DNA of 64,000 nt, taken from positions 1 through 64,000 of the IMG/VR virus record IMGVR_UViG_3300034073_003178; one strand, written 5' to 3'. The notes below the pieces were generated by a model. It ran no database searches, was not told where the DNA came from, and saw only the letters and a list, made by a program, of their open reading frames with translations. A program made the position numbers and the translations under genes. Origin of the DNA: a virus. Positions 4,536-50,754 of the stretch are shown here, piece after piece; position 1 is the stretch's first letter, and each line of letters opens with the position of its first letter.

Positions 4536-7500
4536 TCAGTATCCATCTTCTGCCCAACACTCTCCATATCCATTCTTCTGATCATCATATGGATAGTTTA
4601 ACCAACCTTTTCTTGTCCACTCAAGATCAATTCCATATCTTGGGAAAGATTTAAATGCTCTTTTTATAACATTTTGACTGATCTGATGTGAGTGATTCCA
4701 TTCTGGACAATTATCATAGAGATATTTTTCTGGATCAAGAATCATGAGATTAATTCTCTCATCAAATTTACTACAATATCTTGAACCAATGTAAGTTTCA
4801 GTCCTTGCGAAGAATGGGTAATACTTATGAAGATTTTCTTTTGTAACCTTAATCTTATCAATAAGACCACCAAACTCAAGAGGAATATCAAACAATTCTT
4901 TCAGATCGCAAGTTCTTCCCCAGAAGATGTGATCTCTTGGATGGAACAGTAGATTTGGATAAATTCCTGCTACGAAAATTTGATCCTCATATTCTCTACG
5001 ATTCATCATGTAATCATACATCTTACACATGCTTTCAATAGAATATTTTTGATCAGTTCTCATTTTTGCAGAGTATTCTGTCTTTACGAAATTTAATCCG
5101 CTAAGAGAACCTACAATTTGTAGATTTCTATTATCAGTTCCTGGAGATGAAGGATATTCATTTCTTATGTATTTTACTCTAGTTGAATGATAAGAATTTG
5201 TCCTATCCATATTCCAACAAGAAACAATTACATTATTCACAAAAGGAATTTTCAAGTATTGATCAATAATTTCATTTGTATATTCATCATATCTTCCTTG
5301 AAGAACAATGTCCATCTTTCCAATTTCAGGAACAATTGTAAATGGTATATTATATTCTTCTTGAATTTTTTCTATAGAATCTAAACAATTTATTTCTTGA
5401 AGTTCTGAAGGTTGATTTTTATTTGAATCTAAAAGATCGGGAAAATATTTTTGAAGATTATCAAGAACTGAATTTTTATATTCTTCTGGCATTTGATAAT
5501 TTTCATATAAATCCTTAAGAAGTTTTCCAGACTCTTCATTTTTTCCCCACCACCATCCAGAAACTGCTTTTTCAAATAATAATCCAAAAGTTCCTGGGTA
5601 TCCTACATTAGTTCTTAATGGAGGAGAATTTAGATCTGCAAAATTTAATGCATTATCAGCATAAATGTAGCAGTCTTGCCAAGACTGTCTTTTTTCCGAA
5701 AAATTTGAAAGTAAAAAATATGCTTCTGGGCGAGTGGGAAGCAGACACAGCGCCTGCTGAAGTAGTCCTTTAGAAGATACATCTCTTGTTCCTTGCCTTT
5801 CATAGCAAATTGATCCGTGAATCAGTGCTTCATAGGCAAGAAGATCATCTGCTCTTTCTGCACATCTCAGAAAATAAGAAAGTGCTGGTGCTGTATGCCC
5901 TTCTCTTTCATACCAAAGACCAAGAGCAAAATTATACTCTGGATTTTCAGTATCTGCTGAGTATTGTGTAAGAAGATTTTCTAGTTCATTCTTTACTGTC
6001 ATTTCTTGCAATCCAAATAATTGATTTAATGAGGTATGTTGTGTTTTCCACCAATTAGATACGAAATCATAACTTTCCTTATGATATTCTTTATGACCAC
6101 CTTCAATTTGATTGAAGGTAGTTGATAAATGATTGTTTTCTACAAACAATTCTACTACATAAACTTTTCCAAGACCATAAAATAAAACATTTTCTGGCAT
6201 CGGGTAGAAATTTGTGCCAGGAATAGTCAAATCATATTCATCATCAAAAACATGCCTTTCTAAAACTTTTCTGGCATAATCCCGAGTCATTATATATGCA
6301 GTGACAGACCAATCATACATGGATCTTTCACGAAAATGAACTGATTCAAATGATGGACGAACAGTTGTTAACTGAACACATTCAGTATCATCTGGTAGTT
6401 TTTCAATAAATTGATTCCAAGTGAAATTCCAGTTTTCTACAGTCTCTAAACTTAGATCATCTTCACAAAAGAAAGCATAATCATCATCTTTCTTTTCATA
6501 CCATTTTTGAATTGCTTTTAGATGAGAAATTGTACATCCAATTGTTCCTCCGTCTAAAATATGTAACATTTCTCCTTTAACTTTATCATTACATTCAGCA
6601 AATCTTTTTGAAAGTATTGGAGTGATGTCATCTATTCCATACCTAGAGAATTGTTCATGTAATGATTTTTGCCTTTCCACACTTTCTTCTAAACTTACAT
6701 AATAAGAATATGGAAAATTTTCAAGATTATTTTTTATAGTATCTTCAATCATTGTACCTATAAAGTTTCTTTTCTTATCGCTTTTAATTATACTCCATTT
6801 AGTGCTATTATTTACATAATAATCTTTTACTTCACCAACCAATTCTTTATTAGCATTTGTATGAGATATTGCCATCACATAATCAGTTTGCCATTCAAGT
6901 TCAATGTTTTCATCAAACATTCCTGTTAGATTATTTTTAATAAGAACTCTATTTTCTTCGCTGTATCCTTCAAAGTTTTCTACTCTTTTTTGATCTTGGT
7001 GTGGTATATGAATTAAGAAATAGTCACAACTTATTTTTTTATGAGTTAGACCAAAAAGTTCCAATCTTTGATATAATTCATCATCTTCATATGAATAATG
7101 TTTTTTTAAATTTTCATTGTATCCACCAACCTTTATGAAATTTTCTTTTGTAATATACAAAAGACCAGTTAGATATTTGAAATATGGACTGTAAGAATTA
7201 CAATATTCTCTAATCTCATCAATATGCATTGTTGTAAAATCTAAAACATATGCATCTTGCTCTTCTGAATAGACTTCTGGACTTTGATAACTATTTTTTC
7301 CAGAAACAAAAGAATTATCATCTATAGTATACTTTTTAAAAAAATTATAATATGGATTGAGAATATAATCTGAATCAACTTTTAAGATATACTTATTTTT
7401 TGCAATACTTACTGCAAGATTTAAAGGTTGAGGTTGATTGAAATATTGTTGATTTTCTACTGTAATTACATTAATTCTTTCATCTAATTCTGTTAAATGA

Positions 7501-7631
7501 GAAATAGATTCATCAGATGACCAATCAACAATAATAATTTCAGATATTTCTTTAAAGGATAACCAAGAACTTAAGGATACGCGAAGTGCTTCATAGCGAT
7601 TTTTGCAAGCACAAATTAAAGATACACTCAT
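4536..7631 (-). CDS. Large multidomain glycosyltransferase (GT2 + GT25 + TPR-like + WavE-like)
   Basis: A 1031-residue protein that reads as four parts. Residues 1-230 are a GT2 family fold (SLICACKNR, IIIVDWSSD, and the metal motif DSD at 86-88). Residues about 305-505 resemble GT25 (YYVSLEESVERQ, GGTIGCTISHLKA, and FFCEDDLS near 392), the family of LPS galactosyltransferases and collagen galactosyltransferases. Residues about 545-690 look like TPR helices (YNFALGLWYEREG). Residues about 770-1000 resemble WavE-type LPS glycosyltransferases (MDIVLQGRYDEYTNE, KMRTDQKYS). It probably builds a linear glycan by successive transfers. It is the last gene of the cluster and is followed by a clear terminator. 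Acceptor unknown: host polysaccharide or the phage's own fibres. Confidence 0.75.
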   Translation of the reverse strand: MSVSLICACKNRYEALRVSLSSWLSFKEISEIIIVDWSSDESISHLTELDERINVITVENQQYFNQPQPLNLAVSIAKNKYILKVDSDYILNPYYNFFKKYTIDDNSFVSGKNSYQSPEVYSEEQDAYVLDFTTMHIDEIREYCNSYSPYFKYLTGLLYITKENFIKVGGYNENLKKHYSYEDDELYQRLELFGLTHKKISCDYFLIHIPHQDQKRVENFEGYSEENRVLIKNNLTGMFDENIELEWQTDYVMAISHTNANKELVGEVKDYYVNNSTKWSIIKSDKKRNFIGTMIEDTIKNNLENFPYSYYVSLEESVERQKSLHEQFSRYGIDDITPILSKRFAECNDKVKGEMLHILDGGTIGCTISHLKAIQKWYEKKDDDYAFFCEDDLSLETVENWNFTWNQFIEKLPDDTECVQLTTVRPSFESVHFRERSMYDWSVTAYIMTRDYARKVLERHVFDDEYDLTIPGTNFYPMPENVLFYGLGKVYVVELFVENNHLSTTFNQIEGGHKEYHKESYDFVSNWWKTQHTSLNQLFGLQEMTVKNELENLLTQYSADTENPEYNFALGLWYEREGHTAPALSYFLRCAERADDLLAYEALIHGSICYERQGTRDVSSKGLLQQALCLLPTRPEAYFLLSNFSEKRQSWQDCYIYADNALNFADLNSPPLRTNVGYPGTFGLLFEKAVSGWWWGKNEESGKLLKDLYENYQMPEEYKNSVLDNLQKYFPDLLDSNKNQPSELQEINCLDSIEKIQEEYNIPFTIVPEIGKMDIVLQGRYDEYTNEIIDQYLKIPFVNNVIVSCWNMDRTNSYHSTRVKYIRNEYPSSPGTDNRNLQIVGSLSGLNFVKTEYSAKMRTDQKYSIESMCKMYDYMMNRREYEDQIFVAGIYPNLLFHPRDHIFWGRTCDLKELFDIPLEFGGLIDKIKVTKENLHKYYPFFARTETYIGSRYCSKFDERINLMILDPEKYLYDNCPEWNHSHQISQNVIKRAFKSFPRYGIDLEWTRKGWLNYPYDDQKNGYGECWAEDGY

Positions 7632-8279: not shown

Positions 8280-8750
8280 TCAACTCCAATTGTTCTTATA
8301 AAATAATGGTTTGTCTGTGCAGATGCCATAACTTCTTTCTATATATTCTGGATTTGAAAGGTATAAATCAGTATTTTCTGGTAAAACAATAACTGATTTA
8401 GAAAAGGGAATTTCCCCCACCAAAACCCATCCAATTCCTTTACTAGTCAAAGTATATTTGTCTACATCATGCCAAAAATAATGAAAATTTATTGGAGCAC
8501 TTGATAATTTTTCAAGTGCTTCTCTATTTTTACAATGAATCCAAAGTACATCTTTATACTTTCTTAACCATTCCATAGTGATAAAATATTGGGGACGATC
8601 ATGCCCAAGATAGCATTGATCATCCCCAATAACCCATAAATCAATTTCAACATCAAATCCTTCAGAGATTGCTTCTTCAATATACTCAGTACTATTTTCT
8701 CTGAGTGGATTTGGTTCAGTTAAATTTCCCCGATGTGCAATAATTTTCAT
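8280..8750 (-). CDS. Glycerophosphodiester phosphodiesterase-like protein
   Basis: A 156-residue protein with the hallmarks of GDPD/PLC-like phosphodiesterases: IAHRGN at residues 4-9, ENSTEYIEEAI, FDVEIDLW (metal-binding Glu and Asp) and YLGHDRPQ (second catalytic His). It is much shorter than cellular GDPDs (about 250 aa) and lacks an obvious full C-terminal barrel, but keeps both histidines. In a glycan operon it might hydrolyse a phosphodiester in a glycerol- or sugar-phosphate polymer, or act on a lipid carrier; this is inference. Only 3 bases separate its stop from the next ATG. Confidence 0.65.
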   Translation of the reverse strand: MKIIAHRGNLTEPNPLRENSTEYIEEAISEGFDVEIDLWVIGDDQCYLGHDRPQYFITMEWLRKYKDVLWIHCKNREALEKLSSAPINFHYFWHDVDKYTLTSKGIGWVLVGEIPFSKSVIVLPENTDLYLSNPEYIERSYGICTDKPLFYKNNWS

Positions 8751-9596: not shown

Positions 9597-10802
9597 TTAA
9601 TATTCATTTCTAGTTAATATTAATATCCAACTATTTGGATAAATTCCATTTCCCATGATATGATGAGTATTAATTTTTTTTATTGAATCATAAAACTTAT
9701 TATGCCCATATAGATTGATTTCTTCCATATAAGATTCAAAAGAATCCTCAGAAAGTAAACCTTCAATTATCAATATTCCACCGGGATTTAGATACTTATA
9801 AGCATTTCTAATAATTTTAATTCTAGACCAAAATGTATGATCAGAATCATCTATTAAGATATCAAATTTGGAATTGGATTTTTCAAATGCTTCACAAATT
9901 GATACTTCACTAGTTGCATCCATATAATCATATGAAGTATCTGGAAGATTATCTTCTTTTGCGCTTTGAAGTAAACTACTATCATTATCCCATCCATAAA
10001 GATGAGCATTAGAGAAGTATTCTCTCCAAATTTTCATTGATGAGTTTTTGTATATTCCAATTTCTCCAAAATTAATCTGTTTGTATTTGAATGGAGAAAA
10101 TAGAAGATTATAAAATGATGTGCAATAATTGGAATCTTTTTTAAATGAAAGTGTAGCGATGTATAGATTTACATTTTCCTGATAAAAACCTTGATGATGA
10201 GGTTGCTCGTATTCTTTTCTATACCTACTTGTTAACTTTAGTCCTGAAGATTCTACGATTTTAATTATATTTTCAGGTGAAATAAATTCACCAGGATCTG
10301 GAGATAAGGTGACATCAGTGGAAATAAGTAATCTTCCGTTTGGTTTTAAGACTCTATGAACTTCATCTGCAACATTTTTCCATCCCCAATTTTCAATACC
10401 ATCTCCCCATGTAGGATTGAAACAGTGTACTGAGCAAGAATCAATTATAACATCTACACTCTCCGGTTCCATTTGCTTTAGTTCATATAAAGCATCACCA
10501 AGAACCATTTTTGCTAATCCTTTTGGACACCAATGATCAACACTCATAAGATCTATTCCAGTCACATCATTGCCCCAACTTGCAATGATGTGAGGAATTA
10601 CTCCATTTGCAGATCCTAAGTCAATTACGGTTAAATTATTTTTTCCGATTGACTTGAATTCTTGTAATAATGACACCCATTTGACAATGGCTGCATCCTT
10701 GTCCCAAAATTCTCCCCGAAAACCTTTTTCAGGCCATTTTTCTTTTTTTAGTATATCCTTACAGATAGAAACATCCTTAGATGTAATTAACTTATTGTAC
10801 AT
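9597..10802 (-). CDS. Two-domain SAM-dependent methyltransferase
   Basis: A 401-residue protein that seems to join two class I methyltransferase domains. The N-terminal one has TVIDLGSANGVIPHI (motif I, about residue 60), VTGIDLMS and NVADEVHRVLKPNGRLLIS. The C-terminal one has LYGWDNDSSL, FDILIDDSDHTFWS (about residue 313) and LNPGGILIIEG. The second half resembles sugar O-methyltransferases with a DDxxH metal site. Together they suggest a bifunctional sugar methylase. It starts 11 bases after the RLP stop. Base composition is strongly AT-rich compared with the RLP gene. Confidence 0.68.
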   Translation of the reverse strand: MYNKLITSKDVSICKDILKKEKWPEKGFRGEFWDKDAAIVKWVSLLQEFKSIGKNNLTVIDLGSANGVIPHIIASWGNDVTGIDLMSVDHWCPKGLAKMVLGDALYELKQMEPESVDVIIDSCSVHCFNPTWGDGIENWGWKNVADEVHRVLKPNGRLLISTDVTLSPDPGEFISPENIIKIVESSGLKLTSRYRKEYEQPHHQGFYQENVNLYIATLSFKKDSNYCTSFYNLLFSPFKYKQINFGEIGIYKNSSMKIWREYFSNAHLYGWDNDSSLLQSAKEDNLPDTSYDYMDATSEVSICEAFEKSNSKFDILIDDSDHTFWSRIKIIRNAYKYLNPGGILIIEGLLSEDSFESYMEEINLYGHNKFYDSIKKINTHHIMGNGIYPNSWILILTRNEY

Positions 10803-10813
10803 TTTTTAATAGA

Positions 10814-12052
10814 TCAAAAATCAAGAACCCATTCAGGAAGAGAACCGCCGCCAGTTTCATATCCCCACTTATCTATGGCATCACGAAACTCTTTACCTGG
10901 AGTCTTATCAATTGCCTGACGCATTGCTAAAGCACCCGATAAAGTGCCTCCTGGATGACCATGAACCGCTCCACCACAATTAGCAAGAAAGTCAGTGCCA
11001 AACTTTTCTGCTGTAGTATTTACAATACCAGGATGCATACCACAACTTAGTGCGGGAAGCACATTTCTCTTATGTAGTGTTGCCATTGTCTGACGAAGTT
11101 CATCTTCATCATCACTTAAGTATCCACCCCACATTCCTGCATGAATTGTATCTACACCGCAAAGTCCTGCAAGATCACAGAGAACATCCCAATCAATACC
11201 AAATGCATGTCTCTTATCGGTAAGAATCTTATCACCACTCTTTTGATAATGAACAAATAAAGGTAGATCCATTTTTCTTACAGAATTATAAACTCCTAGA
11301 CCACTCCAGAAGTTAATATGAATACCATTACCACCATTTTCTGCAACAAACTTAGCACGATCAAGAATTGTATGATGATCTCCATTAATACAGAAGCAAT
11401 AGATCACTCCCCTTCCACAATTATTGACAATGTTGGAAATCAATTCTACACGATCCTCAAGACGGCAAAATGAAGGATTGGCAAGAATCTCATCTTCTTT
11501 AATGAAATCAACTCCACCATCCAGAAGTTCTTTGACCATTTCTGATAGAGTTTGTGGAGAAATGCCTGTTTTTGGTTTTACGATTGCCCCAGAAAGTGGT
11601 TTGTCATAGCGATTAACAAACTTACGAATTCCATCAATACCATTCTTAGGCCCTAGGAATTGTGCTTCCACATCGGCAGGAAATTCAAGTTTACGAAGAC
11701 GGCAAACTTTAAATACATCAATATCTAATTGACCTCCCATCAATTGACAAAGAAGATGTGAGATACCATCACCTTCCCAATCAGTATTTACTTTAGGAAA
11801 TCCAATTTTAACTTCCCCTTCAGTCAACTGAGAAAGTTCATTTTCATCAGCATAGATGACACAAGATGAAAGTTCAAAAAGTTCATCATTTTCCCAGCGA
11901 TTACGAACTTTTGGATTCCCTACACTTTGTCCAATTGCGAGATTCCAAGCCGCATCTTTTAATGTGCCAATATTTGAATATGATTCAATATAATAAGTTG
12001 CAATTACACAACGATTTTTTTCATATTCAGTTAGTTCTCTAAAGAATTTCAT
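10814..12052 (-). CDS. RuBisCO-like protein (RLP, type IV-like)
   Basis: A 412-residue protein with the RuBisCO large-subunit architecture. By hand alignment to plant RbcL it keeps K175 and K177 (GAIVKPKTGIS), the carbamylated lysine and metal ligands K201, D203, E204 (GGVDFIKEDE), H327 (TIHAGMWGG), S379 (LPALSCGMH) and the phosphate-binding Gly pair (CGGAVHGHPGG). The H294/R295 region reads VHYQKSGDK (Gln and Lys there) and the loop 6 lysine K334 is missing, so it is unlikely to fix CO2. Known RLPs act as enolases or isomerases of phosphorylated keto-sugars. Its ATG overlaps the cupin stop as ATGA. The gene is visibly less AT-rich than its neighbours. Reaction unknown. Confidence 0.85.
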   Translation of the reverse strand: MKFFRELTEYEKNRCVIATYYIESYSNIGTLKDAAWNLAIGQSVGNPKVRNRWENDELFELSSCVIYADENELSQLTEGEVKIGFPKVNTDWEGDGISHLLCQLMGGQLDIDVFKVCRLRKLEFPADVEAQFLGPKNGIDGIRKFVNRYDKPLSGAIVKPKTGISPQTLSEMVKELLDGGVDFIKEDEILANPSFCRLEDRVELISNIVNNCGRGVIYCFCINGDHHTILDRAKFVAENGGNGIHINFWSGLGVYNSVRKMDLPLFVHYQKSGDKILTDKRHAFGIDWDVLCDLAGLCGVDTIHAGMWGGYLSDDEDELRQTMATLHKRNVLPALSCGMHPGIVNTTAEKFGTDFLANCGGAVHGHPGGTLSGALAMRQAIDKTPGKEFRDAIDKWGYETGGGSLPEWVLDF

Positions 12053-12375
12053 GATTCAACCTCAAATTTATCAGATGGAATAGACGGAATTTTAACTACC
12101 ACTAAGGTACAATCTTCAAGAAAAATTGGATCAGCAACTTCTCCTTTTTCAAATACAAATACATCCCCACTATTTAACTCATTTCCCTGAATGATCATTT
12201 TACCGGAAATAAGAACATTATATTCTATACTTTCCTTATGATAGTGAGGAGACCAATATTCATCCTTTTTATGTTGTAGAATACCAACCTCAAAATCTTT
12301 GGTTTTAAACAGAGATGGTTCAAAATCTCCAATGAACCATCCACGAACATAATCAGTAATTTTTGTTATATTCAT
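12049..12375 (-). CDS. Small cupin-fold protein
   Basis: A 108-residue single cupin domain. The first cupin motif is SPHYHKESIEYNVLISG (two His and Glu) followed by NSGDVFVFEKGE; the usual second-motif His is replaced, so metal binding is uncertain. Small cupins in glycan clusters can act as sugar epimerases, isomerases or binding proteins. It overlaps the nucleotidyltransferase by 23 bases and the RLP by 4, so the three genes are tightly coupled and probably act on one pathway. Confidence 0.72.
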   Translation of the reverse strand: MNITKITDYVRGWFIGDFEPSLFKTKDFEVGILQHKKDEYWSPHYHKESIEYNVLISGKMIIQGNELNSGDVFVFEKGEVADPIFLEDCTLVVVKIPSIPSDKFEVES

Positions 12376-13087
12376 ATTTTTTTAAATAATAATTTAAATC
12401 TTCTGGGACACCGACAGGATTATGTTGCCAAGTTGGGATTTGATGTATTCCAACTTTTCGGCCAAAATGTTTAATCATATAATTGTATGTTGGTCCAACA
12501 TAGTATTCGCCATTAGGTGCTGTATCTTCAAACTGAATCATTTCTTGAGCACTTTCAACAAAGTAAAATCCTTTTCTCCAATAATGAATTCCGTTAAGAG
12601 ATATGTTGCTAATGACCTCCTTCTCTTTCACCTCCAATACTAACCCATCTCTATCAATTTTGCAATAGCTGTTTTTGGGCGTGTCCGTTTCATAGGTGAC
12701 TATGACTCCATCATACTTATAGTATCTTGCCGTTTGCAGAAATAATCCAGAATCCCACCACATTATTTGATCACAATTCGCAATAACCAATTCAGTATTA
12801 TTATTAATTTCAGTTTCAAATAATAATGCACTACATGCTGGTCCTTTTGTAGTCTCATCAACTGTGATTATCTTACAATCTGGAACTATTTTTTTAAGCA
12901 ATTCGTATATTTGAAAATAAAATGAATCTTGCCGAATTACAAAATGATATTTACCATCAAGATTCATAGATTCAATTGCACATTGAATCATTGGTTTACC
13001 TTCAATTTCAATCAGTGGTTTAGGTAGATGGTATTTGTCTCTTGGAAATCTAGTTCCTTCTCCAGCCATCGGTATGACAATGTTCAT
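12353..13087 (-). CDS. Sugar-phosphate nucleotidyltransferase
   Basis: A 244-residue NTP_transferase. The N-terminal IPMAGEGTRF is the nucleotide-binding signature (G-x-G-x-R) and is followed by HLPKPLIEIEGKPMI, the Lys-Pro motif of hexose-1-phosphate nucleotidyltransferases. ELVIANCDQIM supplies the metal-binding Asp. Members make NDP-sugars from NTP and sugar-1-phosphate. A GAGG ribosome-binding site precedes the ATG. It begins the nucleotidyltransferase-cupin-RLP overlap, suggesting that it activates the sugar phosphate made or altered by the other two. The nucleotide and sugar cannot be read from sequence. Confidence 0.8.
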   Translation of the reverse strand: MNIVIPMAGEGTRFPRDKYHLPKPLIEIEGKPMIQCAIESMNLDGKYHFVIRQDSFYFQIYELLKKIVPDCKIITVDETTKGPACSALLFETEINNNTELVIANCDQIMWWDSGLFLQTARYYKYDGVIVTYETDTPKNSYCKIDRDGLVLEVKEKEVISNISLNGIHYWRKGFYFVESAQEMIQFEDTAPNGEYYVGPTYNYMIKHFGRKVGIHQIPTWQHNPVGVPEDLNYYLKKYEYNKNY

Positions 13088-13131: not shown

Positions 13132-13845
13132 TCATCTATTATTAATAACAACTCTAAAATCAAATCTATTTACTGCTATGTTGTACATTTCAAAGTATTT
13201 GCGAAGCATAGTTTCTGGATGATATTGAACATCTCTAATTTTATCAATATGATTATATAAATTAGAATACAAATTCATTGCATCTGAAGATCCTACAGCA
13301 AACTGATCATTAATGCCACCACACCAATCTTCTCCTCTTGGAATATTGATTCCATTTGGAATGTTGTTTAGATGTAATTCATTTCCTCCAAAGTTACTAT
13401 CAAATCTCATTCTAATCACTTTATCAAATATCATATTATTTTCTTTTTCATAATCACATTTTAATTGATTGCTTTTATAAATTGAATAGTGCATACTAAT
13501 TGGTCCAACATCATGCCTTGGAACTATACATGCCCCTTGCTGAAATGGGAGAAGATTTATAGAATTATGAATTGCTTCAAATTCAGAATGCTTAGATTCA
13601 TCATAATCTTCTATTAAAAGTTTTTCGTAATTGTAATGTTCTAAAAAATTAAATTGAGTTTCAAAAATGTTATCTGGTTCTTTACTTTGTAATCCAAAAA
13701 TAGTTTTTAAAAAACTTTCTGTATCTACAATTTTCCAAGTATGAATAAAGATTTTGATACAATCATTAGGAACTATTTTTTTAATACTTTCTAGACCTAT
13801 ATGAGGATATCTTATATTTCCTGAAATGCAAATTGCTACTTTCAT
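13132..13845 (-). CDS. WavE-like putative glycosyltransferase, copy B
   Basis: A 237-residue paralogue of the 8759-9526 protein: KVAICISGNIRYPHI, KIFIHTWKI, IRMRFDSNFGG and GEDWCGGINDQFAVGSS align without difficulty. The second acidic residue of the DSD motif in copy A is Asn here (DSN), which may alter metal binding or donor use. Its ATG overlaps the upstream stop as ATGA. The two copies flank the nucleotidyltransferase-cupin-RLP-methyltransferase block, suggesting an old duplication followed by insertion between them. Confidence 0.6.
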   Translation of the reverse strand: MKVAICISGNIRYPHIGLESIKKIVPNDCIKIFIHTWKIVDTESFLKTIFGLQSKEPDNIFETQFNFLEHYNYEKLLIEDYDESKHSEFEAIHNSINLLPFQQGACIVPRHDVGPISMHYSIYKSNQLKCDYEKENNMIFDKVIRMRFDSNFGGNELHLNNIPNGINIPRGEDWCGGINDQFAVGSSDAMNLYSNLYNHIDKIRDVQYHPETMLRKYFEMYNIAVNRFDFRVVINNR

Positions 13846-14834
13846 TTAAAAATAAAATCTCTTATAAAATTTTTAGATGCTTTAACCAAATATGCGGCAT
13901 TATCTTGATATCCAAAGGTTATTAGATAATCATTTTTATATTCTGCCATTCCTACAGCAAATTCAATTTCTGCATTTATAAAAGAAAATTGTTTAGACAC
14001 TTTTACGATATTCCAATCTTTGTCCCATACAACAAAACGATGACGATAAACTCCATCTTTTCTACCTGCAGGACTTTTTGTAAGATATGTTTCATGAGTT
14101 AAGCAAAATCTATAATCATCTCCAAGAGGAATAATCTGAGAACCACCTCTTAAATCAATAGTTCCAAAATCTTTCCAATCTTTTTTTATAATACTGGTAG
14201 TAGTGTTACTTTCAATGTCATATTTTACGATTTCAGTTCCATTTGTCCATTTTACATAATGATATGGCATGTCAAGAATAGGCATCCAATTCTTATTGCA
14301 ATATTCTTCGTCTGGAGGTGGAGCAGGAATGCGATGTTGATTAATTTCTTTTACACCATTCTCCGTAATTTCTAGTTCGGAAAGTTCCATTCTTCCCGTT
14401 CCAATTGTATCTAAATCTCTTCTCACTCCAGTTATGTAAAGTTTGTCGTTCCAACGGACAATACGACAGTCTTCTAATCCAACAAAATCCCACAACTCTT
14501 TATCTGGGAACTTTGAAGTATCAATATAATGATATTTTTTAATTCTCATATCATCATCCATTTCGCACATAATATTCCATGTGCGGAGATGCATATCATT
14601 TTCTGGATGAATATAAACTAAAGGTCCCCAAGGGTGTTCAAATTTTTTCTTTTCTGAATGATATAGTGTATAATTGATATTTCTGAGATTTACTAAAATC
14701 TTATCTCCATCAATGTAAACCGAAGGATTTGTAAGTGCCGGCCCTTTTAGTTCATTTGATGGAATAATTAAAGGATAAATGCTTCCTCCATTTTGGAGAG
14801 CAATTTTGACGAAGTTCATTTCATCTGCTGTCAT
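13842..14834 (-). CDS. GH130-like beta-propeller glycoside phosphorylase or hydrolase-like protein
   Basis: A 330-residue protein with repeated short beta-rich units expected of a five-bladed propeller. FVGLEDCRIVRW (about residue 116) matches the GxEDPR motif of GH130 mannoside phosphorylases, whose Asp is the proton donor, with Pro changed to Cys. ALTNPSVY, NWMPI and RGGSQIIPL are other typical propeller positions. It may process or bind an oligosaccharide made by the cluster. An alternative start is the ATG at 14819 (MNFVKIAL). It is the first gene after a sigma70-like promoter and is coupled to copy B by ATGA. Confidence 0.62.
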   Translation of the reverse strand: MTADEMNFVKIALQNGGSIYPLIIPSNELKGPALTNPSVYIDGDKILVNLRNINYTLYHSEKKKFEHPWGPLVYIHPENDMHLRTWNIMCEMDDDMRIKKYHYIDTSKFPDKELWDFVGLEDCRIVRWNDKLYITGVRRDLDTIGTGRMELSELEITENGVKEINQHRIPAPPPDEEYCNKNWMPILDMPYHYVKWTNGTEIVKYDIESNTTTSIIKKDWKDFGTIDLRGGSQIIPLGDDYRFCLTHETYLTKSPAGRKDGVYRHRFVVWDKDWNIVKVSKQFSFINAEIEFAVGMAEYKNDYLITFGYQDNAAYLVKASKNFIRDFIFK

Positions 14835-19899: not shown

Positions 19900-21918
19900 T
19901 TAAACTCCGAATACGATGCTGTATGAAATGGATTGTTCCGCTGTTACAAATGAAGTTGTTGGAGAACTGGTAGATTTAATTGCAACTCCAAAGAATACTT
20001 GTCCTGCTTTAGGTGCCTCAACAAAATTAATTTTGATTGGGTCAGTTGTTCTATTTGTACCACCACTAATATAAAAACCTGCAGTTTGTGATGGGTCTGG
20101 TTGTTGAACTATTCCTCCTACAGAAATAAGTAGTCGTGCTGCACTATCTATCTCACTATTTATGAAATTACCTGAATTATCGGAAATGATAAATTGAGTT
20201 GTTGAACCATTAAAGAGTGAAGAAATATCATTCAAAATTACGGATTGATCAGGAACAGATGCTGTTGACCCAACAGCACCTTGTAGACCTTGTAGACCCT
20301 GCGATCCTTGAAGACCTTGAACACTGCCAGCAAGACCTTGAACACCTTGATTTGCTAACCCTTGAAGACCTTGGAGACCTTGAGATCCTGATATACCTTG
20401 ATTGCTAAGACCTTGAACACCTTGAGAACCTTGTGATCCTGAAGTTCCCTGAGAACCTGAAGTACCTTGAGAACCAACACCTTGAGTTCCTTGTAATCCT
20501 TGAGATCCTTGAGATCCTTGAGATCCTGAAGTACCTTGAGAACCAACACCTTGAGTTCCTTGTAGTCCTTGAGAACCTTGAGAACCAGAAATACCTTGAT
20601 TACTTAAACCCTGAGTACCCTGTAATCCTTGAGAACCTTGAGATCCTGATGTTCCTTGAGAACCAGAAATACCTTGATTACTTAAACCTTGAGTTCCTTG
20701 TAGTCCCTGTGAACCCTGAGAACCTGAAGTACCTTGTGATCCAGAAGTTCCTTGATTACTTAAACCTTGCGTTCCTTGTCTACCCTGAAGTCCTTGAGCA
20801 CCTTGAGATCCAGATGTTCCTTGAGATCCAGAAGTTCCCTGAGAACCTGAAGTACCTTGAGAACCAACACCTTGAGTTCCTTGTAGTCCTTGAGAACCTT
20901 GAGAACCAGAAATACCTTGATTACTTAAACCTTGAGTTCCTTGCAGTCCTTGAGATCCTGATGTACCTTGAGAACCAGAAATGCCTTGATTACTTAGACC
21001 TTGTGTACCTTGTAGTCCCTGAGAACCTTGCGATCCAGAAGTACCTTGGGAACCAGATGTTCCTTGAGATCCTGCTATACCTTGATTACTTAAACCTTGA
21101 GTTCCTTGTCTACCCTGAAGACCTTGAGAACCTTGAGATCCTGATGTACCTTGAGAACCAGAAATACCTTGATTACTTAAACCCTGAGTTCCTTGTAGTC
21201 CCTGTGAACCCTGAGATCCTGATACACCTTGATTACTTAATCCTTGATTACCTTGAACACCTTGTCTACCCTGAAGACCTTGAGAACCTTGTGATCCTGA
21301 TGTTCCCTGAGATCCAGAAATACCTTGATTACTTAAACCTTGAATACCCTGTAATCCTTGAAAACCTTGAGATCCAGAAATACCTTGATTACTTAAACCT
21401 TGAGTACCTTGATTTCCTTGTAATCCCTGTGATCCCTGAGATCCTGATGTACCTTGGGAACCAGAAATACCTTGATTACTTAAACCTTGAGTTCCTTGTC
21501 TTCCCTGTAATCCTTGAAACCCTTGAGAACCTAAAGTACCTTGATTACCTTGTACTCCTTGACTTCCTGAAGAACCTTGAAGTCCTTGATCTCCACGAAT
21601 TTGTCCTACATTATCCCAGTCAGTTCCCGTATAAACCCACAAATCACCAGTATTTTCCTCAATAACACCATCACCTGCAAAGGGAGGATACCAAGAAAAT
21701 TGAGTATCGTCGTTAGTTAATGTAGTATGGGGTTCCGATGTAGTAACACTAGTAACAACACCAACAATAGTTACAGAAGTTCCATCAGTACCAGATTTTC
21801 CCTGAACACCTTGATTTGAAAAACCTTGGATTCCCTGTTCACCGATTATTCCTTGAACACCTTGAGCGCCTTGATCGCCTTTAAATGTTCCTCCAATAAT
21901 AGTACTTAGAAATGCCAC
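19900..21918 (-). CDS. Collagen-like tail fibre protein A (672 aa)
   Basis: The start is GTG (21916-21918), reading MAFLSTIIGGTFKGDQG. Apart from a short non-repeat insert (about residues 45-110), residues 10-560 are Gly-X-Y repeats in which Y is nearly always Gln (GTQGLQGSQG). They are interrupted repeatedly by GLSNQG, a five-residue spacing instead of three. The C-terminal 120 residues (SVILNDISSLFNGSTTQF onward) are a globular beta domain ending SYSIVFGV. Bacterial and phage collagen-like tracts form stable triple helices without hydroxyproline. Likely a thin trimeric fibre with a C-terminal trimerising head. A late-promoter-like box lies 23 bases upstream. Confidence 0.8.
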   Translation of the reverse strand: MAFLSTIIGGTFKGDQGAQGVQGIIGEQGIQGFSNQGVQGKSGTDGTSVTIVGVVTSVTTSEPHTTLTNDDTQFSWYPPFAGDGVIEENTGDLWVYTGTDWDNVGQIRGDQGLQGSSGSQGVQGNQGTLGSQGFQGLQGRQGTQGLSNQGISGSQGTSGSQGSQGLQGNQGTQGLSNQGISGSQGFQGLQGIQGLSNQGISGSQGTSGSQGSQGLQGRQGVQGNQGLSNQGVSGSQGSQGLQGTQGLSNQGISGSQGTSGSQGSQGLQGRQGTQGLSNQGIAGSQGTSGSQGTSGSQGSQGLQGTQGLSNQGISGSQGTSGSQGLQGTQGLSNQGISGSQGSQGLQGTQGVGSQGTSGSQGTSGSQGTSGSQGAQGLQGRQGTQGLSNQGTSGSQGTSGSQGSQGLQGTQGLSNQGISGSQGTSGSQGSQGLQGTQGLSNQGISGSQGSQGLQGTQGVGSQGTSGSQGSQGSQGLQGTQGVGSQGTSGSQGTSGSQGSQGVQGLSNQGISGSQGLQGLQGLANQGVQGLAGSVQGLQGSQGLQGLQGAVGSTASVPDQSVILNDISSLFNGSTTQFIISDNSGNFINSEIDSAARLLISVGGIVQQPDPSQTAGFYISGGTNRTTDPIKINFVEAPKAGQVFFGVAIKSTSSPTTSFVTAEQSISYSIVFGV
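20268..21590 (-). repeat. Collagen-like coding repeat tract (protein A)
   Basis: DNA encoding Gly-X-Gln triplets as near-identical 9-base units (plus strand: CCTTGAGTA/CCTTGAGAA and variants) with a longer composite unit containing the GLSNQG break (CCTTGATTACTTAAACC). Synonymous differences between copies show repeated duplication and conversion. Such tracts are prone to slippage and recombination with those in the other three collagen-like genes. Confidence 0.85.
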
Positions 21919-21940
21919 GGTTTATCTTTTTATTTTTTAT

Positions 21941-21948
21941 TATTTATT
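21941..21948 (-). promoter_or_regulatory. Late-promoter-like box upstream of collagen-like protein A
   Basis: AATAAATA on the minus strand, seven of eight bases of the T4 late promoter consensus TATAAATA, 23 bases before the GTG start. In an AT-rich context this is suggestive only; identical boxes precede other structural genes in the window. Confidence 0.4.
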
Positions 21949-21952
21949 TAAT

Positions 21953-21978
21953 AATTATAATAATGAATTATAATAATG
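21953..21978. repeat. Tandem 13-bp direct repeat, two copies
   Basis: AATTATAATAATG occurs twice head to tail in the short gap between two collagen-like genes. Each copy contains a TATAAT-like word on the minus strand (TTATAATT). May be a chance AT-rich duplication or an auxiliary promoter element. Confidence 0.5.
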
Positions 21979-21989
21979 TTGTTGTTCAG

Positions 21990-24146
21990 TCATCCTTTCA
22001 ATTCATTCAGTTGATTTTCAAGATTATTTATCTGCTTTTGTTGTTCTTTAATTGCTTCAATTAGAAGTGAAGTTAAGTTTCCGTAAGCAACTGACTTAAT
22101 ACCTGTGCTATCTTCCATAACAATTTCAGGAAGTACTTTTTCAACTTCTTGTGCAATTACACCAACATATCTTCTTTCTTTATCTTCTTGGTCATTTCTA
22201 TTAAATGTAACACCACGAATTTGAGAAACTTTATCTAATGCATTTGTAATGGTTTCAATATTTTCTTTGAGTTTGATATCAGAGTTTGCAGTGACTGTTC
22301 CAGATGCAGTTATATTTCCATTAGAACCTAAAGTAATAACTGCTGATCCACTTCTATTTCCACCATAAATTTGTGTTCCACTTGAAAATCTCATTGCACA
22401 ATAACCTGTATTCAGGTCTACAATATCACCATCATCTGCAAGAATAATTCCTCCACCAGTTGCATTACCAGTTGATACTGTTAAATTTCCCGATAAACTT
22501 ATATTAGAGGCATTGAAGTTTCCACCAATAGTAAGATCACTTGTACTTGGATTAAAACTAAATGCAGTTGTCGCCGTTCTTACTGATGGAGTTTGGTTAG
22601 TACCTGCAGCAGCGACAAATACTGGGAAAAACGATGCATTTGTGGTTACTGCTGTTGCATTTATTGCAGTAGAAGGGCCTGCAGTACCTACAGTTCCTTG
22701 AGCACCTGAAGTTCCTTGAGAACCAGATGTTCCTTGAGAACCTGATGTACCTTGATTACTTAAACCTTGAGTACCTTGTCTACCCTGAAGACCTTGAGCA
22801 CCTTGAGAACCTGCTGCACCTTGAGTACCTGATGTACCTTGAGCACCTGATGTACCTTGAGCACCTGATGTACCTTGGAAACCTGCTGTACCTTGAGCAC
22901 CTGAAGTTCCTTGAGAACCTGCTACACCTTGATTACTTAAACCCTGAGTACCTTGTCTACCCTGAAGTCCTTGAGCACCTTGAGATCCTGCTATACCTTG
23001 ATTACTTAAACCCTGAGTACCTTGTCTACCCTGAAGTCCTTGAGCACCTTGAGATCCTGCTATACCTTGATTGCTTAAACCTTGAACCCCTTGATTGCCT
23101 TGTAATCCTTGAGAACCTTGGGATCCTGATGTACCTTGAGAACCAGAAATACCTTGATTACTTAAACCTTGAGTTCCTTGTCTTCCCTGAAGTCCCTGAG
23201 CACCTTGAGAACCAGAAATACCTTGATTACTTAAACCTTGAGCACCTTGAGATCCTTGAGTACCTGATGCGCCTTGAGTACCTGATGTACCTTGAGAACC
23301 TGCTACACCTTGATTACTTAAACCTTGAGTACCTTGTCTACCCTGAAGACCTTGAGCACCTTGAGAACCTGCTGCACCTTGAGTACCTGATGTACCTTGA
23401 GCACCTGATGTACCTTGAGCACCTGATGTACCTTGGAAACCTGCTACACCTTGATTACTTAAACCTTGAGCACCTTGATTTCCCTGCAATCCTTGAGATC
23501 CTTGAGAACCTGCTATACCTTGATTACTTAAACCTTGAGTTCCTTGTCTTCCCTGGAGACCTTGAGCGCCTTGGGATCCAGAAATACCTTGATTGCTTAA
23601 ACCTTGAACCCCTTGATTGCCTTGTAATCCTTGAGAACCTTGGGATCCTGATGTACCTTGATTACTTAAACCTTGAACCCCTTGATTGCCTTGTAATCCT
23701 TGATTTCCCTGAGAACCTATTGTTCCCTGATTTCCCTGTAATCCTTGAGATCCTTGAGAACCTGCTATACCTTGATTACTTAAACCTTGAGTTCCTTGTC
23801 TACCCTGAAGACCTTGATTACCTTGAACACCTTGATTGCTTAAACCTTGAACACCTTGATTACCCTGAAGACCTTGAACACCCTGATTTGATAATCCCTG
23901 TAGACCTTGATTTCCTTGTAATCCCTGAGAACCTTGAGATCCAGAAATGCCTTGAGATCCTTGATTACTTAAACCTTGTGTTCCTTGAGTACCTTGAGTA
24001 CCTTGAAGACCTTGAGAACCAGAAGTGCCTTGAACACCTTCAGAAGGCATTAAATCCCATGCTTCTCCATTAAACTTCCAGGTTCTACCCCCAAGAGAAT
24101 ATGTGGTTACATTTGCAATAGGGTTAATTGGAAAATCTAAAGGCAT
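21990..24146 (-). CDS. Collagen-like tail fibre protein B with Peptidase_S74-type chaperone end (718 aa)
   Basis: The first ~35 residues (MPLDFPINPIANVTTYSLGG, then RTWKFNGEAWDLM) resemble a small attachment domain. Residues 36-490 are Gly-X-Gln/Ser/Ala repeats with many GLSNQG breaks. A beta domain follows, then SDIKLKENIETITNALDKV, VTFNRNDQ, RRYVGVIAQEVEKVLPEIV, the pattern of Peptidase_S74 intramolecular chaperones, and a coiled coil (EAIKEQQKQINNLENQLNEL). In S74 fibres this end drives trimerisation and then cuts itself off at a Ser just before the DxKxKENI motif. Here the sequence ANSDIKLKEN keeps that Ser. A mature fibre without the last ~110 residues is predicted. Confidence 0.85.
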   Translation of the reverse strand: MPLDFPINPIANVTTYSLGGRTWKFNGEAWDLMPSEGVQGTSGSQGLQGTQGTQGTQGLSNQGSQGISGSQGSQGLQGNQGLQGLSNQGVQGLQGNQGVQGLSNQGVQGNQGLQGRQGTQGLSNQGIAGSQGSQGLQGNQGTIGSQGNQGLQGNQGVQGLSNQGTSGSQGSQGLQGNQGVQGLSNQGISGSQGAQGLQGRQGTQGLSNQGIAGSQGSQGLQGNQGAQGLSNQGVAGFQGTSGAQGTSGAQGTSGTQGAAGSQGAQGLQGRQGTQGLSNQGVAGSQGTSGTQGASGTQGSQGAQGLSNQGISGSQGAQGLQGRQGTQGLSNQGISGSQGTSGSQGSQGLQGNQGVQGLSNQGIAGSQGAQGLQGRQGTQGLSNQGIAGSQGAQGLQGRQGTQGLSNQGVAGSQGTSGAQGTAGFQGTSGAQGTSGAQGTSGTQGAAGSQGAQGLQGRQGTQGLSNQGTSGSQGTSGSQGTSGAQGTVGTAGPSTAINATAVTTNASFFPVFVAAAGTNQTPSVRTATTAFSFNPSTSDLTIGGNFNASNISLSGNLTVSTGNATGGGIILADDGDIVDLNTGYCAMRFSSGTQIYGGNRSGSAVITLGSNGNITASGTVTANSDIKLKENIETITNALDKVSQIRGVTFNRNDQEDKERRYVGVIAQEVEKVLPEIVMEDSTGIKSVAYGNLTSLLIEAIKEQQKQINNLENQLNELKG
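22694..24036 (-). repeat. Collagen-like coding repeat tract (protein B)
   Basis: Same 9-base Gly-X-Gln coding units as in protein A, with additional Gly-Ala/Thr-Gln types (GTSGAQGTSG). Several blocks of about 100 bases are nearly identical within the tract (for example around 22740-22920 and 23310-23460), a sign of recent internal duplication. Confidence 0.85.
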
Positions 24147-25036: not shown

Positions 25037-28000
25037 TTAAGTTAATCCTGCTCCCGAAATGATGAACACATCAGCATTATTTACATCAGCAACACAAAGA
25101 ACGGTACAAACACCATAAGCACCAAGAGTTCTATTTCCTGTTTGAGTTGTACCAGCATATCTTAAAGTCACATTAGAACCTTGAGTAATTGTTTGTGCAA
25201 CTGCAGAGTCATTATAAATCACCACATTTTCTCCTACTTGGAATACATTGACGGGAACTGTTACACCACCAGTAGTAATATCAATATGTTTTCCATTATC
25301 TGATGCTTGAAGAACATATGATGTTGTTTGAACATTTTGCGGAATTGTTGCAGGACCAAATGTTCCTTGGTTTCCTTGAAGTCCTTGTGTACTTTGAATA
25401 CCTTGAAGACCTTGAACACCCTGAACACCCTGATCTCCTTGTAATCCTTGAACCCCTTGATTGCCTTGTAATCCTTGATTTCCCTGAGAACCTATTGTTC
25501 CTTGATTTCCCTGTAGTCCTTGAGAACCTTGAGAACCAGAAATACCTTGATTACTTAAACCTTGAGTTCCTTGTCTACCCTGAAGACCTTGAGATCCTTG
25601 ATTACTTAAACCTTGAACCCCTTGATTTCCTTGTAATCCTTGAGAACCTTGAGATCCTATTGTTCCTTGATTTCCCTGTAGTCCTTGGGAACCTTGAGAA
25701 CCAGAAATACCTTGATTACTTAAACCTTGAGTTCCTTGTCTTCCCTGCAATCCTTGAGAACCTTGATTACTTAAACCTTGAACACCTTGATTGCCCTGAA
25801 GACCTGTTGGGCCTGTTGGTTCTGGTCCAAACTCAACCCATTGTTGACTATTTCCATCATTATAATAACGATATGTAACCCCGGTATTTTCATTAATCCA
25901 AATATCCCCAACAACTGAAGATATTCCTGCAGATGATGGTTGGATATAAGTTCTCGGTGCCCATCTAGTTGCTCCAGATGCTGTAGATACTATTATTGAA
26001 CCTGCAATTCCTACATTATTGAAACTATCATAAACAGAACCTCTAATTCTAATATTTCCATTTACATCCAAACTTTGTGTTGGAATAGAAGTTCCGATTC
26101 CTACAGAACCTAATCCACTTACTACAAGAGAAGGTGAAGCAAAAAGTGCTGTAGTCAGTCCAGAATTTACTGTTGAGAGACCTATGTAATAAGGTTTAGT
26201 TTCTACTGAAGAAATATTATAAAAAGTAGAAATACCTGATCCACCTTCACTAGCATTTCCTGCGGGGCCTTGAACACCTTGAACACCTTGATTTGATAAT
26301 CCTTGAGTACCTTGTCTACCTTGAAGACCTTGAGAACCTTGATTACTTAAACCTTGAACCCCTTGATTGCCTTGAAGACCTTGAGCACCTGAAGTTCCTT
26401 GAGAACCTGAAGTTCCTTGAGAACCTGAAGTTCCTTGAGAACCTGAAGTTCCTTGAGAACCTGAAGTTCCTTGATTACTTAAACCTTGAGTTCCTTGTCT
26501 GCCTTGGAGACCTTGAGCACCTTGAGAACCTGAAGTTCCTTGAGAACCTGAAGTTCCTTGAGAACCTGAAGTTCCTTGAGAACCTGAAGTTCCTTGATTA
26601 CTTAAACCTTGAGCACCTTGATTTCCCTGCAATCCCTGTGAACCTTGAGCACCTGAAGTTCCTTGAGATCCAGATGTTCCTTGAGCACCTGAAGTTCCTT
26701 GAGATCCAGATGTTCCTTGAGCGCCTGAAGTTCCCTGAGAACCAAATGTTCCTTGAGAACCTGCTATACCTTGATTACTTAAACCTTGAGTTCCTTGTCT
26801 TCCCTGGAGACCTTGAGCACCTTGAGATCCAGAAATACCTTGATTGCTTAAACCTTGATTACCTTGTAATCCCTGCGAACCTTGAGAACCAGAGATACCT
26901 TGATTACTTAATCCTTGAACTCCTTGATTTCCCTGAAGACCCTGAGCACCTTGATTTCCTTGTAACCCTTGAGAACCTTGAGATCCTAATGTACCTTGAG
27001 CACCTGAAGTTCCTTGAGATCCTATTGTTCCCTGCAAACCTTGAGTTCCTTGATTACCTTGTAATCCTTGAAGACCTTGAGTTCCTTGATTACCTTGTAA
27101 TCCTTGAAGACCTTGAGATCCTGAAGTACCTTGATTACCCTGAACACCTTGATTACTTAAACCTTGAGTTCCTTGTCTGCCTTGGAGACCTTGGGAACCT
27201 TGATTACTTAAACCCTGAACACCCTGCAATCCTTGAGAACCTTGAGATCCAGAAGTACCTTGTGAACCTGATATACCTTGAGAACCAGTATCTCCTTTAT
27301 CTCCTGTTCTAGCGAAAGTGATGATAATATCTTCGTTAGAACTAAATGAAGTTGCACTACCGGAAACATATGAACAATCAACTTCAAAATATCCAGTTTG
27401 TTCTATAATTCCGGAAATAGTGAAAAGTGCAAAATCAGAAGAATCAAACTTATTTGAAATTCTAAAATGACCTTTAATAGTTGATGTAGAATCATCAATT
27501 GTTCTTAGGAATGATTGGATATCAGTTGTTCCATCGTTTTGATCATCAATATAAAGTTTATTTGCAAGAGTTATATTAGAATTATTAAACTTAAGATTTC
27601 CAGTTCCTGGATCAATATTTGTAGTATCAGTATTAAAAGTATAATCAAAAGTAGCACCACCAAAGTTTCCATCTTTACCAGAAAGTCCTTGCAAACCTTG
27701 AGAACCAGAAGTACCCTGTGTTCCTTGATTACCTTGGACACCTTGATTGCTTAAACCTTGAACACCTTGATTTCCTTGTAGTCCCTGTGATCCCTGAGAT
27801 CCTGAAGTTCCTTGAGTTCCTTGTAGTCCCTGTGATCCTTGTGTTCCTTGATTACCTTGAACACCTTGATTGCTTAGACCTTGGACACCTTGAGAACCTT
27901 GAGATCCTGATGTACCCTGTAATCCTTGAGTTCCCTGATTACCTTGTAAACCTTGCAATCCTTGAATTCCTTGATTGCCTTGTAATCCTTGAAGACCTTG

Positions 28001-50014: not shown

Positions 50015-50086
50015 AGCCACTTGTCAGATTTGAACTGACGACCGCTCGCTTACAAGGCGAGTGCTCTACCACTGAGCTAAAGGGGC
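50015..50086 (-). tRNA. tRNA-Thr (TGT)
   Basis: A 72-base cloverleaf on the minus strand. The acceptor GCCCCTT pairs with AAGTGGC with one mismatch. The anticodon stem CTCGC/GCGAG holds loop CTTGTAA (anticodon TGT), and the T-arm has GTTCAAATC. CCA is not encoded. TGT reads ACA/ACN codons, which are used heavily by this AT-rich genome. Confidence 0.9.
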
Positions 50087-50108
50087 GAATAAAATCATTA
50101 TAAGGTAT

Positions 50109-50387
50109 TTAGAGAATTTCGTCAAGCACTTCTGGATTCTCAAGTTCAACAGGAAATAAACATGGATGCACTTCTTCGTCTATAAGATAGAAAGATTTTT
50201 GATAAAAGATTTCAGGAGTCATTGTAAGTTGTTGATTTGCTTTTTCAATTATTTCAGGATCATTCTGAGCAATTTCAGGAATATCATCAAATGTAAAAGG
50301 AATGTTATTAATGTAGTATGTCTTTATAATATATTTTCCATCTTGAGTATTATACCAATTATAAGAAAAGGTGATTAGATACTTCAT
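50109..50387 (-). CDS. Hypothetical protein (92 aa)
   Basis: A 92-residue protein within the tRNA cluster (MKYLITFSYNWYNTQDGKYI at the start, acidic end PVELENPEVLDEIL). It starts with an aromatic beta-hairpin-like stretch and ends acidic. No domain recognised. A late-type AATAAATA box lies 21 bases upstream. It separates tRNA-Thr from the other three tRNAs. Confidence 0.55.
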   Translation of the reverse strand: MKYLITFSYNWYNTQDGKYIIKTYYINNIPFTFDDIPEIAQNDPEIIEKANQQLTMTPEIFYQKSFYLIDEEVHPCLFPVELENPEVLDEIL

Positions 50388-50407
50388 TAGAATTCATCAG
50401 TATCTTA

Positions 50408-50415
50408 TATTTATT
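50408..50415 (-). promoter_or_regulatory. Late-promoter-like box upstream of the 92-aa gene
   Basis: AATAAATA on the minus strand, 21 bases before the ATG at 50387. It matches seven of eight late-consensus bases. Confidence 0.35.
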
Positions 50416-50449
50416 TTTTATTTTTACCTCTAGAATTTTACCTTAAAAG

Positions 50450-50535
50450 TAGGCGAGGCGAGACTTGAACTCGCATGGGCACAATGCCCGTCAGATTTTA
50501 AGTCTGAGATGTCTAACCAATTCCATCACTCGCCC
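50450..50535 (-). tRNA. tRNA-Leu (TAA)
   Basis: An 86-base class II tRNA on the minus strand. The acceptor GGGCGAG pairs with CTCGCCT (last pair G-U). The anticodon stem TCAGA/TCTGA holds loop CTTAAAA (anticodon TAA). A long variable arm (GGGCAttgtGCCC type) is followed by T-arm GCGAG/CTCGC. Discriminator A; CCA not encoded. Confidence 0.92.
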
Positions 50536-50539
50536 AATA

Positions 50540-50555
50540 AGATCCTTAAGGATCT
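50540..50555. repeat. Perfect 16-bp palindrome between tRNAs
   Basis: AGATCCTTAAGGATCT is a perfect palindrome in the gap of 22 bases between tRNA-Ile and tRNA-Leu. As RNA it could form a stem that guides processing of the tRNA transcript; it could also be a site for a DNA-binding dimer. Confidence 0.6.
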
Positions 50556-50557
50556 AG

Positions 50558-50631
50558 TGGAAATGCTGGGGATTGAACCCAGAACCTCACGCTTATAAGG
50601 CGTGTGCTCTAACCAGTTGAGCTACATTTCC
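50558..50631 (-). tRNA. tRNA-Ile (TAT)
   Basis: A 74-base cloverleaf on the minus strand. The acceptor GGAAATG pairs perfectly with CATTTCC. The anticodon stem CACGC/GCGTG holds loop CTTATAA (anticodon TAT), and the T-arm CTGGG/CCCAG holds TTCAATC. Discriminator A; CCA not encoded. TAT reads the rare host codon ATA, common in AT-rich phage genes. Confidence 0.92.
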
Positions 50632-50642
50632 GAAGTGAGACA

Positions 50643-50671
50643 ATCATAAGGTATAAACCCCAGATTGTCAA
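50643..50671 (-). promoter_or_regulatory. Sigma70-type promoter before tRNA-Ile
   Basis: TTGACA (50666-50671), a 17-base spacer and TATGAT (50643-50648) on the minus strand: eleven of twelve consensus positions. The predicted start lies about 5 bases before the tRNA-Ile 5' end. It is part of an about 40-base sequence duplicated at 50758-50794. Confidence 0.75.
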
Positions 50672-50672
50672 G

Positions 50673-50754
50673 TGCCCCTAGTCAGATTTGAACTGACAAG
50701 CCTCGTAGGCGGTTGATTTTGAGTCAACTGTGTTTACCGTTTCACCACAGGGGC
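50673..50754 (-). tRNA. tRNA-Leu (CAA)
   Basis: An 82-base class II tRNA on the minus strand. The acceptor GCCCCTG pairs with TAGGGGC. The anticodon stem GTTGA/TCAAC holds loop CTCAAAA (anticodon CAA). The variable arm is GCCT/AGGC and the T-arm has GTTCAAATC. Discriminator A; CCA not encoded. Reads TTG. Confidence 0.9.

Follow-up and report, generated by a model that had tools for sequence, protein, structure and literature searches.

RuBisCO genes of viruses (rbcL) have been reported as carbon-fixation genes (PMC8506154, PMC12615777), and the phage locus described here raises the question of whether its RuBisCO homologue could fix carbon and, if not, which reaction it may serve. The locus lies in a stretch of 64 kb (hereafter the window) of a 72,347-base IMG/VR virus record. 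The window belongs to a T4-like phage: it encodes proteins of the baseplate, the tail, and collagen-like fibres, and among named phages their closest relatives are mostly T4-like cyanophages. Four tRNA genes (Thr, Leu, Ile, Leu) are located at 50015-50754. The gene in question is as follows:

10814..12052, minus strand: RuBisCO-like protein (RLP), 412 aa, with an unbroken open reading frame (Pfam, alignment, predicted model, and fold search)

A Pfam search with this protein matched RuBisCO_large over the full catalytic domain (1.8e-42). AlphaFold, run on 48 relatives, modelled it with a pLDDT of 93.6, and the best PDB folds for the model were form III RuBisCOs (TM 0.85, 26-27% identity). Domain, fold, and a KxDE carbamyl-lysine/metal motif place the protein in the RuBisCO superfamily, so that both the RuBisCO-like protein and the RLP fold expected by the original prediction were recovered. 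In pairs of close viral relatives, dN was 0.05-0.10 versus a dS of 0.9-1.5, indicating strong purifying selection on the gene.

Residue placement was checked by HMM and profile-profile alignment, solved structures, and the predicted model. The following active-site segments were located by alignment (RLP numbering for the segments, RuBisCO numbering for the equivalent residues):

11912..11932, minus strand: GQSVGNP (residues 41-47), replacing E60, T65, and W66
11564..11578, minus strand: KPKTG (159-163), K175 and K177 kept
11486..11506, minus strand: FIKEDEI (183-189), carbamyl-lysine and metal ligands kept
11234..11245, minus strand: QKSG (270-273), at the H294-R295 position
11120..11143, minus strand: H304 to Y311, H327 kept and loop-6 Lys334 replaced by Tyr311
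11039..11047, minus strand: SCG (336-338), S379 and G381 kept
10970..10975, minus strand: G360-G361, G403/G404 kept

The residues kept comprise K175 and K177 (K159 and K161 in the RLP), K201, D203, and E204 (within K185-E186-D187-E188, equivalent to K201-D202-D203-E204), H327 (H304), S379 (S336), G381 (G338), and G403/G404 (G360/G361). The D202 position, which is no metal ligand, is occupied by Glu, as is already visible in the motif read by hand. Replacements affect H294 (Q270), R295 (K271), and K334 (Y311), as well as E60 (G41), T65 (N46), W66 (P47), N123 (G107), and G380 (C337). Alignment and model agree with the kept residues that had been read by hand from the sequence (GGVDFIKEDE, VKPKTG, H327, S379, and the Gly-Gly loop). 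The earlier reading that loop 6 (HAGMWGGYL) has no lysine also stands, with Y311 at the K334 position, but the loop keeps its spacing and the lysine is the sole loss there; moreover, the losses listed at that time, H294/R295 and the loop-6 lysine, omitted E60, T65, W66, and N123.

The hand-aligned Gln-Lys pair at H294/R295 was confirmed as well. Alignment to form III RuBisCO puts Q270/K271 at these two positions, and the model strand 266-270 terminates at Q270. When hhalign was run against the MtnW profile alone, H268 was shifted onto H294. This placement was discarded in favour of Q270 because Gln270 and Ser272-Gly273 are invariant across the family alignment and the strand stops at Q270, whereas H268 varies in deeper family members: at its position (H292), viruses have His, and half of the cellular members carry Phe or Met.

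The same pattern extends to the whole family. In all 148 members aligned, K334, E60, N123, and H294 are replaced by Y, G, G, and Q, and the losses of T65 and W66 are likewise fixed. The metal site, K175, K177, S379, and G381 are kept in 148/148, and G403/G404 in nearly all (a gap or few changes). Variation is mainly confined to the residues of the distal (P2) phosphate, namely R295 (Lys, Ser, or Arg), H298 (mostly Asp or Ala), and H327 (His, with Gln instead in 58 viral members). E60, N123, H294, and K334 are carboxylation residues in established RuBisCO biochemistry, and the residue pattern of carboxylating RuBisCOs (forms I-III) is therefore absent from every member; carboxylation is not expected in this clade. 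Assuming that the P1/P2 and acid/base roles established for RuBisCO carry over to the window RLP, we infer that the substrate is a P1-bound monophosphate with a variable distal end, which would be enolised and not carboxylated.

A genuine RuBisCO boosting host carbon fixation is thus extremely improbable here. Such a role is the customary annotation of viral rbcL genes and is how the two studies cited above read viral rbcL homologues, and the best family model for the window RLP was indeed form III RuBisCO; nevertheless, the 194 bits obtained are far under the cut-off of 497, no member retains any of the four carboxylation residues, and those recurrent neighbours to which an identity could be assigned are genes of a glycan-related cassette, with no Calvin-cycle genes. 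A carbon-fixation AMG was ruled out on residues and context.

Comparison with known relatives delimits the family further. Form III RuBisCOs (8dht, 3a12, 2cwx) share with the window RLP the fold, K175, K177, the carbamyl-lysine, the metal ligands, H327, S379, and the loop glycines, but E60, T65, W66, N123, H294, R295, and K334 are replaced in the phage protein. Among RLPs with a known reaction, MtnW is an enolase and OiaX a decarboxylase. The MtnW/YkrW DK-MTP-1-P enolase (2oek, 2zvi) and 4nas are RLPs that also keep the metal site and have R295 and K334 replaced; in contrast with the window RLP, MtnW retains H294, is without K177, and forms a separate clade. Scores with the MtnW models (TIGR03332, NF007095) were 126 bits against a cut-off of 514 and 168 against 409. 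OiaX, the 3-oxo-isoapionate-4-phosphate decarboxylase, is another RLP, acting on a sugar-acid phosphate, and its model (NF042437) gave 151 bits against a cut-off of 700.

Trees took in forms I, II, II/III, and III, the 3nwr and IV-Photo classes, the MtnW/4nas types, and the 3qfw type, with class labels of genome loci assigned by us and anchored on PDB entries. In the broad tree, the RLP family was recovered as one clade (SH-aLRT 100, stem 0.84); in a careful tree with the longest branches removed, bootstrap/SH-aLRT support for the clade was 100/99, as was its separation from forms I, II, II/III, and III. The window RLP was placed outside the IV-Photo (1tel, 2qyg) and 3nwr-type clades, classes without K177. 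The R. rubrum 5-methylthioribulose-1-phosphate isomerase was represented by its possible relatives 4nas and locus L225, which fell in another clade. Nesting inside a known RLP class, which would have undermined the original prediction, was found for none of the classes testable. On these trees, the family is separate from forms I-III and from each of the RLP classes compared, the GOS groups being compared by description only. These unnamed GOS RuBisCO homologue groups, called IV-GOS in later reviews, may include the window RLP clade. The 2007 GOS paper describes 65 RuBisCO homologues outside all then-known forms, which are marine and have N123 and H327 among their non-conserved sites; its passages on these groups give no viral link, context, or function (PMC1821046).

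A first viral scan of IMG/VR returned 222 stretches with RLP relatives and a second one 50; the two scans share at least 7 contigs, and the 129 RLP loci counted correspond to about 120 contigs. Family members are present in more than 100 IMG/VR viruses, and, as far as residues can tell, an RLP without the parts needed for CO2 fixation is carried by a large family of viruses that infect aquatic bacteria. Cellular relatives were found in SAR11, Legionella, Azospirillum oleiclasticum, Elusimicrobia, Verrucomicrobia, Bacteroidota, Patescibacteria, and DPANN archaea, although some of them, on short single-cell or metagenome contigs, could be viral. RuBisCO-family genes occurred in 4/140 Legionella-family genomes. 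Family-profile scores were bimodal (at least 290 bits versus at most 189). As bacteria and archaea also have it on their chromosomes, the family is not viral only, and its cellular members in several phyla rule out a phage-only invention. The RLP tree, unrooted for transfer, contains several virus/cell mixings and does not give their direction. An INPHARED search with the window RLP produced no match, and plasmid tblastn matches were rejected as clade members, those listed having identities of about 31% or less and being annotated as other RLPs or RuBisCOs.

Gene context provided further evidence on the reaction. The neighbours of the RLP gene are:

12049..12375, minus strand: small cupin, 108 aa, HxHx4E motif (Cupin_7 5e-4, below the Pfam cut-off; family alignment)
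12353..13087, minus strand: sugar nucleotidyltransferase (NTase), 244 aa (NTP_transf_3 9.9e-6, just under the Pfam cut-off)
8280..8750, minus strand: short GDPD-like protein, 156 aa (motifs HRG, EN, ExD, GHD, and HxK kept; fold)
9597..10802, minus strand: two-domain SAM methyltransferase, nearby and no core member (Pfam; in 2 loci only)

The cupin gene overlaps the RLP start by 4 nt and the NTase gene by 23 nt, and the GDPD-like gene lies 2 kb downstream of the RLP. A relative of the cupin (locus L135) also matches Cupin_2 (1.1e-5), and the best solved relative of the NTase is 4evw, a nucleoside-diphosphate-sugar pyrophosphorylase (2e-33). The GDPD-like model (pLDDT 96.9) has as its closest folds glycerophosphodiester phosphodiesterases, truncated and with modest scores (TM about 0.6); the window copy has no Pfam or NCBIfam match, and a single-protein viral scan with it found nothing. 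This family of about 150 aa, with the catalytic motifs and about half the usual barrel, is widespread in phage glycan islands. Another family, of 330 aa (13842-14834), adjoins the cassette in 14 viral loci; it has no Pfam match and by eye resembles beta-propeller glycosidases/phosphorylases.

The linkage of NTase, cupin, a further enzyme, and GDPD seen in the window recurs among the viral RLP loci, where the NTase was present in 122/129, the GDPD-like gene in 104/129, the cupin in 100/129, and all three in 78/129. Conversely, a search with the window NTase, which covers its close relatives only and largely the same contigs again, found the RLP in 35 of 37 newly fetched loci, the other two ending at a contig edge. 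Cells carry comparable arrangements. Azospirillum oleiclasticum has a complete GDPD-RLP-cupin-NTase set beside sulfate-activation genes and a GT41 protein, and in Legionella an RLP-NTase pair lies near LicD and a weak Wzy_C-like (O-antigen ligase) gene. The SAR11 arrangement, GDPD-NTase-RLP-NTase, recurs in several genomes (L138-L145), and in L138 it looks chromosomal because it is located between thyX and hflK-like genes; a paper on the SAR11 O-chain does not mention RuBisCO.

An RLP gene overlapping a cupin gene could also be read as a methionine-salvage enolase with its acireductone dioxygenase, since MtnW is an RLP and that dioxygenase a cupin. We consider this very unlikely, given the low MtnW scores reported above and a cupin that matches Cupin_7/Cupin_2-type models and not the dioxygenase family. 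The same cupin, moreover, occurs in RLP-free cassettes with RpiB or a phosphomannomutase-like protein (PMM), and methionine salvage was discarded on these grounds.

In phages free of RLP, both known and uncultured, NTase, cupin, and GDPD genes of the same families accompany a different sugar-phosphate enzyme. In 11 loci, NTase, cupin, PMM, and GDPD genes stand in one row, the PMM-like protein replacing the RLP. In the Bellamy cyanophage cassette (PfkB, NTase-RpiB, cupin), homologous NTase, cupin, and GDPD-like genes are present and RpiB replaces the RLP; 26 of 30 Bellamy-type loci have the NTase fused to RpiB together with cupin and GDPD, and genes for a PfkB kinase and a HAD protein lie upstream. 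The Bellamy gene concerned (L293:7992-9149) is annotated as "phosphatase" but encodes a fusion of a nucleotidyltransferase with an RpiB-type isomerase. HAD-NTase fusions were detected in S-CAM9 and B23. In S-SKS1-type phages the NTase is fused to RibB (DHBP_synthase 5.4e-65), in loci without cupin or GDPD; the S-SKS1 gene itself (L290:6001-7428), annotated as DHBP synthase, is such a nucleotidyltransferase-RibB fusion. These exchanges suggest that the step taken by the RLP is the conversion of a sugar phosphate, ahead of its activation with a nucleotide. As the slot enzymes differ in chemistry (mutase, isomerase, C4-forming synthase), the slot fixes the position in the pathway better than the reaction. 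In the NTase tree, the NTases that go with PMM and RibB fall into subclades of their own, which, together with the RibB loci devoid of cupin and GDPD, indicates that the products may differ.

The main rival is accordingly one of chemistry within the same nucleotide-sugar pathway, in which the RLP would act as an enolase, dehydratase, decarboxylase, or RibB-like carbon-losing enzyme, yielding a short or deoxy keto-phosphate for activation by the NTase. The RibB-fused NTases, which group with two RLP-cassette NTases (support 99), and the enolase and decarboxylase among known RLPs speak for it, whereas the commoner replacements, PMM-like proteins and RpiB, preserve the carbon skeleton; we regard it as rather unlikely.

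Since the carboxylation residues are lost and its slot is filled elsewhere by sugar-phosphate enzymes, the RLP is probably a non-carboxylating sugar-phosphate enzyme, most likely an isomerase or epimerase, feeding a nucleotide-sugar pathway for phage glycans. In the proposed mechanism, Mg2+ on carbamylated K185, D187, and E188 would allow a 2-keto sugar monophosphate, bound by its phosphate in the conserved loop-7/8 (P1) site, to be enolised. With K159 as putative acid/base, and Q270 and Y311 at the positions of H294 and K334, the enol would be reprotonated elsewhere, giving an isomerised or epimerised sugar phosphate. The adjacent NTase would convert this product into an NDP-sugar or NDP-ketose, and phage glycosyltransferases would transfer the sugar to a phage glycan, for instance on collagen-like tail fibres, or to the host surface; the cupin and GDPD-like protein may act in the same pathway. 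The original prediction of a sugar-phosphate reaction in a viral glycan pathway rather than carbon fixation is supported by residue losses, cassette, and slot swap, with the provisos that the family is also chromosomal and that the reaction itself is deduced.

Possible users and acceptors of the sugar are encoded on either side of the cassette:

4536..7631, minus strand: multi-domain glycosyltransferase, 1031 aa, with GT2-like, GT25-like, and WavE-like domains (Pfam), a candidate user of the activated sugar
19900..24146, minus strand: two collagen-like (Gly-X-Y) tail fibre proteins (sequence repeats), possible glycan acceptors

GT25 is the family of collagen galactosyltransferases, and a GT25-like domain with collagen-like fibres nearby suggests collagen-type glycosylation of phage fibres. 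Three fibre-like, largely Gly-X-Y proteins are encoded near the cassette (19900-21918, 21990-24146, and 25037-29425), and a 2OG-Fe(II) oxygenase at 51342-52010 is a possible hydroxylase for collagen-like fibres. With the same RLP chemistry, and without excluding the preferred reading, the sugar might instead decorate the infected host surface (superinfection exclusion or masking) and not the virion. Cellular relatives do adjoin LPS-type genes (LicD and the weak O-antigen ligase match in Legionella), but the window cassette adjoins tail fibre genes, with fibres and GT25-containing glycosyltransferase flanking it; a host-surface destination is conceivable, if less probable than the virion.

The RLP is a member of a class without known function, defined by its fold, active-site make-up, clade, cassette, and exchange with other enzymes. 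On balance, we favour a new functional class, which would be the first in the RuBisCO superfamily to serve specifically in making nucleotide sugars, with a Gln-Lys/Tyr active site, supplying activated sugar for phage and bacterial glycans and exchangeable with a phosphosugar mutase or isomerase. A phrase search of papers for phage-encoded RuBisCO found none. Among published viral homologues, one rbcL was assayed as active with rbcS (PMC12615777), and in another study a gene from a landfill virus grouped with "RbcL-like" proteins (PMC12607003). Published viral rbcL counts (PMC8506154, PMC12607003, PMC12615777), which may include genes of this clade, need re-checking because the RLP clade is not expected to carboxylate and lies in glycan cassettes. 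With 222 matching IMG/VR stretches in a single scan, genes of this clade do not belong in tallies of viral carbon fixation; they probably catalyse a new sugar-phosphate reaction, and they offer an RLP class with a narrow, testable substrate prediction and with a place in the pathway that is indicated by the enzymes naturally swapped for it.
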